From positions 1 through 53,951 of the forward strand of contig CALWHG010000010.1 of NCBI GenBank assembly GCA_944380315.1: DNA of 53,951 nt. The letters are read 5' to 3'. Positions 659-44,158 of the stretch are shown piece after piece. The position numbers and the translations under genes were made by a program. Under the pieces are notes generated by a model. It had not been told where the DNA came from and did not search any database. It was given only the letters and a program-made list of their open reading frames with translations. This DNA is from an uncultured Lachnospiraceae bacterium (GTDB lineage: Bacteria > Bacillota > Clostridia > Lachnospirales > Lachnospiraceae). Every line of letters starts with the position of its first letter. The stretch's first letter is position 1.

Positions 659-893
659 ATCTGAACAAGACCCGGTCATATCCGGTGGGCCCTTTGCCCC
701 TGCGGGGCGGCAGACACCCACTCGGATATGACCGGGCCTTTTTATTGTATCGGCTTTTGAATGGAGTCTTTCGGTAGCTGGATAGCGATCTGACATAAGT
801 ATATATGAAGCTCTCCGGCTGTGCCCGGCGGGTGTCTGCTGCCTCGTAAGAGGCAAAGGGCCCGCAGGCACAGCCGGGGAGCTTCTTATATAT
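659..893 (+). repeat. Paired-hairpin dispersed repeat, copy A
   Basis: Copy A of a ~230 bp element seen again at 8668-8893 in the same orientation, with only a handful of differences. Hairpin 1 (672-736) has outer arms CCCGGTCATATCCG / CGGATATGACCGGG and is followed by a T-rich stretch. Hairpin 2 (809-893) has different outer arms (GGCTGTGCC / GGCACAGCC core). The inner part of hairpin 1 (687-719) is the reverse complement of the inner part of hairpin 2 (830-863), so the element is also one large inverted repeat. Each inner part carries a small apical stem; here hairpin 2 has GCCTC-GTAA-GAGGC, a GNRA-type loop. A linker of about 70 nt between them is almost identical in both copies. With the promoter at 976 this fills the 410 nt gap between genes; no coding sequence is evident there. 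Confidence 0.85.
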
Positions 894-959
894 ATGTGTT
901 ATTTGGCAATAGTGCAACATGCATAAAAATCTTCGATAAAAATTGTATAATTGTACAGA

Positions 960-2192: not shown

Positions 2193-3701
2193 ATGAAAGT
2201 ATTTGAAGCGAAAAAGATATGCAAAAACTTTTACAGGACCCATGCGCTGACGGACGTGGACTTTGACCTTGAGGAAGGCGAGGTCATGGCCCTGGCGGGA
2301 GAGAATGGCGCCGGCAAAAGCACCCTCATGAAATGCCTCCTGGGCATACATGAGCCCACCAGCGGAGAGATGTATCTCTTCGGAAAGAAATATGAGCCCA
2401 AGTCACCCTATGATGCTCTTATGCAGGGCATAAGCATGGTCCATCAGGAGCTCTGCCTGGTACCCAGCATGACAGTCTCAGACAATGTCTGGATAGGCAG
2501 AGTGAAGAAATTCTCCAAAAACGGACTTTACGATCCTGAGTTGGCAGTGGCAGCTACCAGGAAGCTTTTCGACGAATATGGCATAAATGTGGATCCCAGG
2601 GCCACCGTAAAGACCCTGAGCACGGCTCAGATGCAGATGGTGGAGATAGGAAGAGCCATAAGCTACGATCCCAAGGTCATCATACTGGATGAGCCTACCA
2701 GCGCACTCAGCGAAAGCGAGGTAGAGGTCCTTTACAAGGTCATAAGGAACATGACAGCCAGGAAGACCAGTATCATCTTCATTAGCCACAAGCTGGAGGA
2801 GGTCTTTGAGGTGGCAAACAGAGTCACCGTGTTCCGTGACGGACATTCCATAAGCGTAAGGAACGTTGAGTCCCTGACCATGGACATGCTCATCAACGAC
2901 ATAGCTGGCAGAGAGGTCGGAAACATCTATCCCAAGATAGACGTGAAGCCCGGTCAGGTAGAGCTGGAGGTAAAGAATCTTTCCAAGGCCGGAAAGTATA
3001 AGGACATAAGCTTCAAGGTCCATGCAGGAGAGATCCTGGGCTTTGCGGGACTTGTGGGAGCCGGACGTACCGAGATCATGGACGGCATCTACGGCATAGA
3101 CCCTGTTGACAGCGGCGAGATCCTGCTGGAGGGAAAGAAGGTAGTAAACAAGACTCCCAGACATGCCCTCAACAACGGCATAGCCATGGTGACTGAGGAC
3201 AGGCTCAGGAGAGGCGTCAACAAAAAGATGAATGTCAAGATGAACATGACACTGGCTTATCTATACAGGATCTGCAAGGGCATATTCATAGACATGAACA
3301 GGGAAAACACCGATGCCGAGAACATGGCAAAGAGGCTGAAGGTCAAGACTGCAGGCATACAGATGCCAATATGGTCGCTTTCTGGAGGAAATCAGCAGAA
3401 GGTCATGGTAGGAAGGGCCCTGCTTACGGATCCCAAGGTGCTCATCATGGATGAGCCCACCAGAGGCGTGGACGTGGGAGCCAAGCAGGAGATATATGAA
3501 TATCTCAATGAGCTGGCAGCCCAGGGACTGGCCATACTGCTCATATCCAGTGATCTGCCCGAGGTCATGGGCATGAGTGACCGTATGCTGGTGCTCAGGG
3601 AAGGCAAGATCGTAGGAGAGCACATCAGAAATGACGGAACCAGCTCAGACAAGGTCATGAGCGAGATGTTCGGACTCACATCATCTGTTTCGGAGGAATA
3701 A
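2193..3701 (+). CDS. Sugar ABC transporter ATP-binding protein (two ABC domains)
   Basis: A 502-residue RbsA/MglA-type ATPase with two nucleotide-binding domains. NBD1 has Walker A GENGAGKST (about residues 36-44) and Walker B VIILDEPTSAL, with a relaxed signature LSTAQMQMVEIGRAI. NBD2 has a degenerate Walker A (GLVGAGRTEI), a canonical signature LSGGNQQKVMVGRALL, and VLIMDEPTRGVDVGA. The ATG at 2193 is chosen because a GAAAGGGA ribosome site lies just upstream. An in-frame ATG at 2136 would translate through the intercistronic hairpin and add 19 residues unlike the family start. It energises import with the permease at 3706. Confidence 0.93.
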   Translation: MKVFEAKKICKNFYRTHALTDVDFDLEEGEVMALAGENGAGKSTLMKCLLGIHEPTSGEMYLFGKKYEPKSPYDALMQGISMVHQELCLVPSMTVSDNVWIGRVKKFSKNGLYDPELAVAATRKLFDEYGINVDPRATVKTLSTAQMQMVEIGRAISYDPKVIILDEPTSALSESEVEVLYKVIRNMTARKTSIIFISHKLEEVFEVANRVTVFRDGHSISVRNVESLTMDMLINDIAGREVGNIYPKIDVKPGQVELEVKNLSKAGKYKDISFKVHAGEILGFAGLVGAGRTEIMDGIYGIDPVDSGEILLEGKKVVNKTPRHALNNGIAMVTEDRLRRGVNKKMNVKMNMTLAYLYRICKGIFIDMNRENTDAENMAKRLKVKTAGIQMPIWSLSGGNQQKVMVGRALLTDPKVLIMDEPTRGVDVGAKQEIYEYLNELAAQGLAILLISSDLPEVMGMSDRMLVLREGKIVGEHIRNDGTSSDKVMSEMFGLTSSVSEE

Positions 3702-8034: not shown

Positions 8035-8673
8035 ATGAAGTTTAAGGCGGTCATATTTGACCTTGATGGCGTGATATGCTTTACGGATGAATATCATTAT
8101 CTGGCGTGGAAGCAGGTCGCCGATGAGCTCGGCGCATATTTTGACAGAGACATAAACAACAGGCTGAGAGGCGTCTCCCGTATGGACAGTCTGGACATAA
8201 TCCTTGAGAACTATCATGGGGAGCCCCTGTCAGCGGAGCGAAAGCAGGATATAGCGGAAAGGAAGAATGGCCTTTACCGGGAGTATCTTAAGAAGATGAG
8301 CACTGCTGATCTGTCGGATGAGGTCAGGGATACCCTGATAAGGCTTCGGGAGCTGGGACTTAAGCTGGCCATAGGCTCCTCCAGTAAAAACACGAAGCTC
8401 ATACTCGAGCGAATAGGCCTGTCGGGCTTTTTCGATGCTGTCAGCGACGGCAACAACATCAGCCGTTCAAAGCCGGACCCGGAGGTGTTCCTTAAGGCAG
8501 CAGACATGCTGGGAGAAGCCCCTGCAGACTGTCTGGTGGTCGAGGATGCGGTGAGCGGAGCACAGGCCGGGCATGCGGGCGGCATGCAGGTGGCCTGCCT
8601 CGGGGATGCATCTGAGAAGAAGGCCGGGGACTACAACCTCTCGGCATTTTCACAGCTTTTGGATATCATCTGA
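8035..8673 (+). CDS. Beta-phosphoglucomutase-like HAD hydrolase
   Basis: A 212-residue HAD-superfamily protein. The DxD motif is FDLDGV (Asp9, Asp11). A cap with HYLAWKQVADELG and LRGVSRMDSLDIILE is close to beta-phosphoglucomutases (usual length ~215-220). Motif II is IGSSSKN, motif III is around KPDPEVFLKAADMLG, and VVEDAVSGAQAG holds the motif IV acids. It probably interconverts beta-glucose-1-phosphate and glucose-6-phosphate, feeding the isomerase gene downstream. No disaccharide phosphorylase is present nearby to supply beta-G1P, so another sugar phosphate is possible. Its stop codon lies within repeat copy B. Confidence 0.8.
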   Translation: MKFKAVIFDLDGVICFTDEYHYLAWKQVADELGAYFDRDINNRLRGVSRMDSLDIILENYHGEPLSAERKQDIAERKNGLYREYLKKMSTADLSDEVRDTLIRLRELGLKLAIGSSSKNTKLILERIGLSGFFDAVSDGNNISRSKPDPEVFLKAADMLGEAPADCLVVEDAVSGAQAGHAGGMQVACLGDASEKKAGDYNLSAFSQLLDII

Positions 8674-8893
8674 ACAAGACCCGGTCATATCCGGTGGGCC
8701 CTTTGCCCCTGCGGGGCGGCAGACACCCACTCGGATATGACCGGGTTCTTTTTTATTGTATCGGCTTTTAAATGGAGTCTTTCGGTAGCTGGATAGCGAT
8801 CTGACATAAGTATATATGAAGCTCCCCGGCTGTGCCCGGCGGGTGTCTGCCGCCTCGCAGAGGCAAAGGGCCCGCGGGTACAGCCGGGGAGCT
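8668..8893 (+). repeat. Paired-hairpin dispersed repeat, copy B
   Basis: Second copy of the element described at 659-893, in the same orientation. Hairpin 1 (8681-8745) is identical over its stem and inner part and is followed by a T-run, so it can terminate the mutase message. Hairpin 2 (8819-8893) has inner part 8841-8873, the reverse complement of 8696-8728. Differences from copy A preserve pairing: T-G becomes C-G in one stem step, C-G becomes G-T in another, and the apical loop is GCA instead of GTAA. The first bases overlap the preceding stop codon. Together with the isomerase promoter it accounts for the 365 nt gap. Confidence 0.85.
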
Positions 8894-8963
8894 TTATGTA
8901 CTTGTGTATAGAACGCATGATCATAGCCTGCAAAATATTTGAGTATATTGTTTCCGGAACTTA

Positions 8964-11824: not shown

Positions 11825-12376
11825 TCATCTGAGTGCCGGCTGCTTACGGAGCAGCTTAACCAGGGGTATGGCTACGGTGGCCACGACTATGGCAGTTATG
11901 ATGCCTATGACGAAGCGGTAAGCCATGCCTCCGAAGATGAGGGCGGGAGTATAGTAGTTGAAAAGTATGCTGTCCAGCCAGTTGACCAGAGTGTTGCCTA
12001 TGGTGGTCAGGGTAGCTGCTATGGAGCATACCACATAGAGTATCCATCTGTACTGCTCCGGACGCTTACCCTGCTTTTTCATGGCCAGGGTGAAAAGCCC
12101 TATGCAAAGGCCTCGCAGTGCCGGAGGTATGAGATAAAATACTGTGGTATAGGTTATGCCATAGGTTAGCAGCTGCTTGCAGAACTCGCCTATGAGAGCT
12201 GTGGACACGGCATCCACCGGCCCGAAGAGCAGGGCCATGACCACGGTGGGCAGGGATGCAAAGGATATGCGTACCGTGCCTATATTGACTGCAAGGTACA
12301 TGGACATGGGCACGTACATGGCTGCACACAGTGCTACGCAGCAGATCCTCAGAGTCTTATTTTGTTTTTGTGACAT
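11825..12376 (-). CDS. folT: ECF transporter S component, folate-type (FolT-like)
   Basis: A 183-residue integral membrane protein with about six helices, the substrate-specific subunit of an energy-coupling-factor vitamin importer. IGTVRISFASLPTVVMALLFGP resembles the first conserved helix of FolT-like S components ('lrIgf..lP...ag.lfGP'). The general ECF ATPase/EcfT genes are not in the window, so it would share a module encoded elsewhere. Folate specificity is inferred chiefly from the upstream tetrahydrofolate riboswitch. AAGGAGG lies 8 nt before the ATG at 12376; a TTG codon at 12379 is an alternative start. Confidence 0.87.
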   Translation of the reverse strand: MSQKQNKTLRICCVALCAAMYVPMSMYLAVNIGTVRISFASLPTVVMALLFGPVDAVSTALIGEFCKQLLTYGITYTTVFYLIPPALRGLCIGLFTLAMKKQGKRPEQYRWILYVVCSIAATLTTIGNTLVNWLDSILFNYYTPALIFGGMAYRFVIGIITAIVVATVAIPLVKLLRKQPALR

Positions 12377-12384
12377 CAAAAAAA

Positions 12385-12455: not shown

Positions 12456-12598
12456 GGCAGCGGGATGCGGGATAGATACTGCGCGGCTCTGTCACATGCC
12501 CTGCGATATCATGAGATATCCTATGGCGCTGAGCCCCTTCGTCCGGAAAGCAACTCCCCGTCTTTCCGGCACTTTTACACATATATCCCTACTCTGCC
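12456..12598 (-). promoter_or_regulatory. Tetrahydrofolate (THF) riboswitch aptamer
   Basis: Reading the minus strand, the leader has the conserved blocks of the THF-I aptamer in order: GAGTAG, AAAGTGCC, ACGGGGAGTTG, ACGAAGGG and finally GCATCCCGCT. The closing stem GGCAG (12598-12594) pairs with CTGCC (12460-12456). The order and wording agree with the class known upstream of folT and folate genes in Clostridia. An extra stem is inserted between the ACGAAGGG and GCATCCCGCT blocks. With its platform and promoter it fills the space between folT and the licC-like gene. Confidence 0.85.
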
Positions 12599-44087: not shown

Positions 44088-44158
44088 GGCGACATAGCCA
44101 AGTGGTAAGGCGTGGGTCTGCAACACCCTGATCACCAGTTCGAATCTGGTTGTCGCCT
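44088..44158 (+). tRNA. tRNA-Cys (anticodon GCA)
   Basis: The acceptor stem GGCGACA pairs with TGTCGCC and is followed by discriminator T. The anticodon stem-loop is GGGTCTGCAACACCC with anticodon GCA. The T arm is CCAGTTCGAATCTGG. No CCA is encoded. The tRNA has its own promoter and terminator. Confidence 0.95.

Follow-up and report, generated by a model that had tools for sequence, protein, structure and literature searches.

A REP-like but non-REP family of dispersed hairpins with a near-constant tip and changing, self-complementary stems in a Lachnospiraceae bacterium and its sister species

The paired hairpins studied here belong to a lineage-specific, dispersed palindromic repeat which is REP-like without being REP, is probably mobile and appears to be kept behind genes as a two-way terminator; we give this reading a probability of roughly 0.6. 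The family consists of a dispersed hairpin of 70–80 bp, a unit both smaller and commoner than the ~230-bp copy originally described. A non-autonomous mobile palindrome also terminating transcription, as proposed in the initial annotation, would fit this family as far as its sequences go.

The window is the whole stretch of DNA that was analysed, i.e., positions 1–53951 of contig C10 in a genome (G000) of 80 contigs and 2.19 Mb, and contains the following features:

659..899, no strand: first copy of a ~240-bp duplicated doublet, 93.8% identical to 8668–8907 over 243 aligned bases
665..741, + strand: hairpin element 1 of the first doublet, stem GACCCGGTCATATCCG..., core 687–719 on +, 85.8 bits with covariance model R1
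742..807, no strand: doublet linker of ~66 nt, nearly the same in both doublets
808..885, - strand: hairpin element 2 of the first doublet, stem AGCTCCCCGGCTGTGCC..., core 830–863 on -, R1 64.7 bits
1065..8673, + strand: gene run separating the doublets (ORF prediction and Pfam)
8668..8907, no strand: second doublet copy, in direct orientation relative to the first
8674..8750, + strand: hairpin element 1 of the second doublet, core 8696–8728, R1 87.5 bits
8819..8895, - strand: hairpin element 2 of the second doublet, core 8841–8873, R1 76.8 bits

As first described, two near-identical copies are present (96% identity between 659–893 and 8668–8894 over query bases 1–226), each has two hairpins with inner parts that are reverse complements of each other (73% for 687–719 and 830–862, 89% for 8691–8728 and 8841–8878, as ungapped inverted repeats), and sequence comparison of the copies showed that their differences preserve pairing on the + strand. 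The pair itself, in contrast, is not the unit but one local arrangement of single hairpins, and its linker at 742–807 has no further genome match at E ≤ 0.001 (blastn against G000). The suggested long-range stem between both cores is conceivable on paper, but the local hairpins win: the mean core1–core2 pairing probability was 0.0 in both complete-ended copies, and copy 1 reached -97.1 kcal/mol in one forced long-range register vs. -135.3 kcal/mol. The long-range fold became the minimum in the trimmed stretch 8668–8893, in which the second outer stem is cut. The GNRA loop is likewise present, as GUAA in the core at 830–863, and a GAAA loop is possible in the C8 copy; it is not, however, a family feature, as the apical loop comprises 3 nt in the majority of the other copies.

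In the first doublet, the core of element 665..741, which has a T-rich tail seen in the sequence, lies 32 nt past the end of a + strand gene stopping at 654, and element 808..885 is inverted with respect to it, sharing its stem subfamily with window 8819–8895 and C28:9582–9658. In the second, the core of element 8674..8750 lies 22 nt past a HAD-family gene ending at 8673. Bounded by the two doublets in direct orientation is a sugar-transport gene run encoding, in this order, a sugar-binding protein, an ABC ATPase, a permease, a GH3 glycosidase, a small ORF without family, a ROK regulator and the HAD phosphatase. The phosphoglucose-isomerase-family gene next after this run has a different upstream neighbourhood in the sister species Ca. 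Avilachnospira avicola (G007), and another hairpin-like stretch, ATACCACAGCCG...CGGCTGTGGTATAAT, is found upstream of this gene and near its start in G009 and G003 (loci L156 and L157). Further observations in the window are a gene fragment at 1–645, which shows 89% DNA identity to a gene end on C28 (locus L084, 14420–15064) with the match ending just short of the element, a THF riboswitch (RF01831, 73.8 bits) at 12456–12598 on the - strand, upstream of the - strand gene 11825–12379, and a tRNA gene (RF00005, 63.6 bits) at 44088–44158 on the + strand.

The blastn comparison of 659–893 with its own genome gave 47 matches, far beyond two copies. The full copies account for two of these (100% and 96%); the other 45 are weaker, mostly of 30–60 bp and centred on a core. 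A strict core pattern was found at 17 places in G000, its reverse at none, and among 61 genomes (its own and 60 relatives) the pattern recurred only in G007, at 3 places. With up to 3 mismatches, it gave 3 matches in the window vs. 0 in 100 dinucleotide shuffles, missing the fourth window core, whose loop is longer. Covariance model R1, built on an alignment (A1) of 26 copies and applied to 25 genus genomes with 150 first-look candidates scored per genome, returned 31 matches in G000, 12 in G007 and 0 in the remaining 23; after removal of three opposite-strand echoes per genome, 28 places are left in G000, including one truncated copy (C9:19321), and 9 in G007, where C7:1120, among the two weakest matches, is a genuine element whose core is short. 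Among 299 family genomes, scanned with stricter filters and 16 candidates per genome, only G000 gave a match, in a draw that did not include G007 and with a recovery of 16 of G000's own 28 copies. A looser pattern in GTDB r220 had Ca. A. avicola as its sole match, in a search that may leave out records very near the window. Plasmid and phage records held no match to 659–893 at E ≤ 0.01, and a single viral match to the pattern was taken as chance. In the literature, no described family of such form was found among the matches listed, as far as the excerpted texts go.

The core, GGGCCCTTYGC(CTCnnnGAG)GCNGCAGACACCC, is nearly fixed. Read along the core strand, an element consists of an A/T-rich flank, a lower stem with a G+C-rich base and a middle tending to TATA, GGG, CCCTTYGC, usually a small CTC-nnn-GAG hairpin, GC N GCAGACA, CCC, the second arm and finally a flank rich in T. 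Of the 37 copies, 35 carry CCCTTYGC and 34 carry GCAGACA without any change. The small inner hairpin is shortened or gone in three G007 copies (C92:49731, C30:4441 and C7:1120), so that the conserved part comes down to the two short flanking strands. The Y/N position seems to retain a weak or wobble pair, with T.G in 17 copies, C.A in 9, T.T in 4, T.A in 2, G.G in 1 and C.G in 0 (33 of the 37 copies being readable).

The lower stems, by contrast with this fixed tip, fall into subfamilies of unrelated sequence whose arms nevertheless remain paired, e.g., CTCCGGCCGTATA (C17 twice, C2 and G007 C103), CCCCATTTTATATC (C3 twice, C4, C79 and C20) and CAGGCCATAT (C47 twice and C79), and further subfamilies exist. 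In alignment A1, 89.5% of 572 cells were paired vs. 72.0% in shuffles, slid registers pairing at 35–55%, and 110 cells changed on both sides vs. 37.7 after shuffling. RNAalifold predicted 22 pairs with changes on both sides at 15, and the covariation score was 0.441 vs. 0.134. In the lower helix, both sides change in 10/10 consensus pairs, compared with 2/7 in the inner helices. Compensatory changes were also found between orthologous copies, namely T-A to C-G at C28:1917 and G007 C103:3568 and A-T to G-C at C9:19476 and G007 C30:4441. The refuting condition named in the initial annotation, two copies only and no covariation, did not hold, given 37 copies in two genomes and strongly covarying stems.

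Inter-locus matches of more than 60 bp that touch an element mostly cover the hairpin alone, i.e., about 60–95 bp. Exceptions are the window doublet, copied whole, and an Rpn-like (PDDEXK_2) gene or fragment repeated nearby at C79, C4 and C20. Some copies have therefore moved within larger duplications, and the spread could in part be due to ordinary duplication. Rpn-like (PDDEXK_2) genes or fragments adjoin one subfamily (L085 2144–3650, L090 491–1481 and L094 6464–7140), the C4 copy being in pieces. Partial left arms or halves stand beside whole copies at C9, behind gyrA and at G007 C92, on the core-strand 5' side in all three. At G007 C103 (L097, about 3500–3567), the right-half-like sequence aaagggccctgggatatatggg adjoins a whole element and is perhaps a decayed copy.

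At the site shared by C9:19476 and G007 C30:4441, flanks and arms align while the cores lie on opposite strands; the core has been inverted in one of the two species. Template switching at imperfect inverted repeats, as described for yeast in the excerpted source, homogenises the arms and inverts the spacer (PMC8604942), and what we observed resembles this prediction, in that the arms stay matched and the core, which corresponds to the spacer, flips. Template switching could consequently account for both the matched arms and the flipped core. Being a mutational process, it would not, however, multiply copies as the spread of an element does.

A fixed core on free stems suggests that something reads the core. 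In the mechanism we favour, the element would spread, perhaps as a single-stranded DNA hairpin, via a trans-acting enzyme reading the core, and would land or survive mainly behind genes, where it would terminate transcription both ways. Selection acting on the hairpin and template switching from one arm to the other would jointly keep the arms complementary; the switching would also flip the core and may create the partial tandem copies beside some elements. A more far-reaching version, rather unlikely as a whole, would have an unknown enzyme read only the CCCTTYGC/GCAGACA internal-loop motif on one folded DNA strand, the long stem being of any sequence provided that its arms match, with arms re-matched and core flipped in situ and with pairs of hairpins letting whole operons come and go.

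The elements are intergenic and lie mainly 3' of genes, often as inverted pairs; the C28:9582 copy overlaps a predicted ORF start. For 33 scored copies, the upstream nearest gene on the core strand was co-oriented in 24, and in 20 of these the core was located at most 60 nt from its stop codon. Adding three copies judged by eye from gene lists (C8 sense; C47:7455 and C6 not), with one of 37 unscored, 25/36 are gene-oriented (p 0.029). The copies show the layout of a terminator, with a folded G+C-rich stem, a T-rich tail and a location behind a gene. T-rich tails (at least 6 T in the 12 nt past the stem clamp) follow in 23/35 copies on the core strand and in 27/35 on the other strand, compared with 3% after like triplets in the window, a control that is mostly coding DNA. 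On this basis we infer that copies could act as terminators in both directions. A terminator scan, which accepts loops of 3–8 only, stayed near chance (2 sites vs. 0.5, sd 0.7, in shuffles, and 1 vs. 0.4, sd 0.6).

These positions would also suit a structured RNA in mRNA 3' ends, in which a terminator hairpin would carry, as its core, a site for a protein or ligand; its lower stem would be free to vary since pairing alone matters, and nothing would be mobile. The gene orientation and closeness to stop codons, the near-invariant core between covarying stems and the compensatory changes at the two orthologous sites (C28:1917 and C9:19476) are all in line with such an RNA, and terminator-like hairpins with conserved tips have been reported as riboswitches and candidates, i.e., gene-control elements (PMC8632094, in the part available). 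The likeness to the hairpins of that report extends to the strong stem, the U-rich tail and the conserved apical residues. Unlike gene-control hairpins, as far as that part of the report describes them, the copies here stand behind unrelated genes and in both orientations, 11/36 not being gene-oriented. Moreover, subfamily members at different loci have only the hairpin in common, the core was flipped at C9/G007 C30 with arms and flanks kept, and Rfam gave no match at gathering score for the elements and only weak matches, far under threshold, below it. We therefore regard a purely RNA-based role as unlikely.

The strand on which mismatches are tolerated also argues against it. In the inner stem, A.C-type mismatches outnumber G.T-type ones on the core strand (22 vs. 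7, p 0.008; 13 to 2 with 5 ties by subfamily vote, p 0.007), so that the G.U tolerance falls on the strand which, as a rule, is antisense to the gene. Since the bias is alike in sense (14:5) and other copies (7:2), the strand preference is the element's own and not that of the gene. The folding energy of the anti-core strand was lower in 30/36 copies and higher in 5 (mean -47.9 vs. -43.3 kcal/mol); these counts, like those of mismatches, exclude one truncated copy of the 37. With a neutral loop in place of the core, the energy gap shrank to a non-significant 21 vs. 15 copies (p 0.096). The preference owes most to the core and to which mismatches are retained; if real, it would indicate either a step with single-stranded DNA or transcription of the unexpected strand.

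Elements lie close together more often than expected: adjacent sites less than 10 kb apart occur in 8 pairs vs. 2.2 expected (p 0.0004; 23 sites after merging copies less than 300 bp apart, with the expectation under uniform placement ignoring contig ends), and adjacent pairs of one subfamily are found at C17, C3, C47 and C10. At C17, two inverted elements of the same subfamily bound a 6.4-kb gene run comprising surE, a gene for a beta-lactamase-fold protein and a sugar-type ABC transporter. In G007, the corresponding site holds a single element carrying the outer flank of each G000 element, and the 6.4-kb operon is absent; surE paralogues occur in relatives. Judged from the sequences, either G007 may have lost the operon or G000 may have gained it. 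At C47 (L086 7455–9051), a lone ATPase_2/DUF234 gene stands between two inverted elements of the same subfamily, with an outline like that of an insertion sequence, and a DUF4143 gene at C28 also lies between inverted elements.

attC sites of integrons are hairpins kept by pairing over sequence, with one strand favoured and adjoining gene units. The elements described here resemble them in these three respects, albeit only in outline. A recombinase could accordingly be imagined to read one folded strand and to swap cassettes of element-bounded operons, for which the excess of close pairs, several of one subfamily, the operon present or absent exactly between elements and the mismatch strand bias tied to the element would speak. 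Plain recombination of matching arms, however, explains the operon event equally: matching palindromic arms provide direct repeats whichever way the core points, so that arm recombination suffices. If elements with different stems recombined within the core, mismatched arms would moreover result, and none were seen. As for neighbouring ATPase/nuclease genes, an autonomous and obligate partner of this kind was rejected, since related G000 genes occur at C10:24714, C12 and C68 without an R1-listed element and an 86% homologue is present in G003, where R1 lists none; this likewise counts against attC-like recombination sites, which we consider distinctly improbable.

Comparison of orthologous sites, with gene names from NCBIfam and Pfam, gave further hints on how elements arrive. 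Behind thrS, an element is present in G000 and G007, and G009, G010 and G003 have unrelated core-less hairpins (ThrS being 90–92% identical). The gyrA gene is followed by an element in G000 but by an unrelated core-less hairpin in G007. Elements also follow phoU, mgsA and an Xaa-Pro-peptidase-like gene in G000, and the relatives read, G007 among them, show none there, although the nearest homologues of the last gene (58–64% identical) are perhaps not orthologues. In G000, elements also follow the potD, amidohydrolase, racemase and M20 peptidase genes, and none were found at the 2, 3, 2 and 2 loci read for these genes in G003, G009 and G010. In G007, elements follow potD, the amidohydrolase and the M20 gene, another standing on the racemase side of the amidohydrolase. 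The racemase gene on C16 (L089 3894–5012) scores above the cut-off for alr and, by a small margin, above that of the VanT-G catalytic-subunit model. At mgsA of G000, extra sequence with the element precedes a stretch common to G000, G007, G003 and G009; in this sole clean insertion inspected, whose flanks have diverged, no target-site duplication of the kind that marks MITEs was evident.

Stems that differ among subfamilies, together with core-less hairpins at some of the same places in relatives, could mean that mobility is confined to the 33-nt core, which would insert into loops of pre-existing terminator hairpins. The relatives' hairpins read there have unrelated stems, however, with the ACCCC/GGGGTATTTT base behind gyrA in G000 and G007 as the sole contrary hint; the whole hairpin is common to subfamily members at unrelated loci, and the shared stretch at mgsA persists downstream of the new hairpin. 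Core-only jumping is thus disfavoured and, in our view, highly doubtful. That nothing but a recent duplication of a double terminator lies behind the window doublets is barely tenable: their 94–96% identity would fit, but 28 copies in G000 and 37 in two genomes, strongly covarying stems and a lineage-specific gain refute it.

The preferred reading, a mobile repeat kept behind genes, invites comparison with REP sequences and REPINs, which the excerpted literature describes as dispersed intergenic hairpins, GTAG/CGTC-tagged, RAYT-associated and mostly 3' of genes (PMC3733652, PMC3116915, PMC2817692). The initial annotation had pointed to this likeness, and the resemblance to inverted pairs holds, as does that in dispersed intergenic hairpins 3' of genes, in singles besides inverted pairs, in expanding subfamilies and in a possible terminator role (PMC3733652, in the portion seen). 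However, GTAG and CGTC were each found near the stem base in only 1/36 copies and their complements in 0, and a RAYT gene (Y1 transposase, PF01797) gave no match at E ≤ 0.001 in G000 and G007, genomes 95% and 91% complete in which a gene may be missed; PF01797 is present in 15/25 genus genomes. The hairpin is also longer (70–80 bp vs. 20–40 bp) and its copies are fewer (28 vs. >100), and here the tip is the fixed part and the stems are unrelated in sequence, whereas the REP stem is conserved. With neither tag nor transposase found, membership in REP/RAYT was rejected. No mobiliser was found among Y1_Tnp and the neighbouring ATPase/nuclease genes. SLS families are, in the excerpted account, repeated and mostly intergenic stem-loops defined by sequence clustering and HMMs (PMC2267715); compared with that account, most of the stem here lacks sequence conservation.

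Searches for short palindromic repeats generally rely on conserved sequence, and a family whose stems drift to unrelated sequences while staying paired would escape them; it also suggests that what is recognised can be a small motif at the apex. Occurrence in only 2 of the 25 genus genomes examined implies that the gain may be recent and traceable. In this context, the flipped core shows inverted arms at work, and the site with one element in one species and element, operon and element in the other provides an instance in which gain or loss of an operon between repeats can be tested. With its near-constant tip and its changing yet self-complementary stem, the repeat forms a new and unusual family when set beside the small palindromic repeats known from bacteria.
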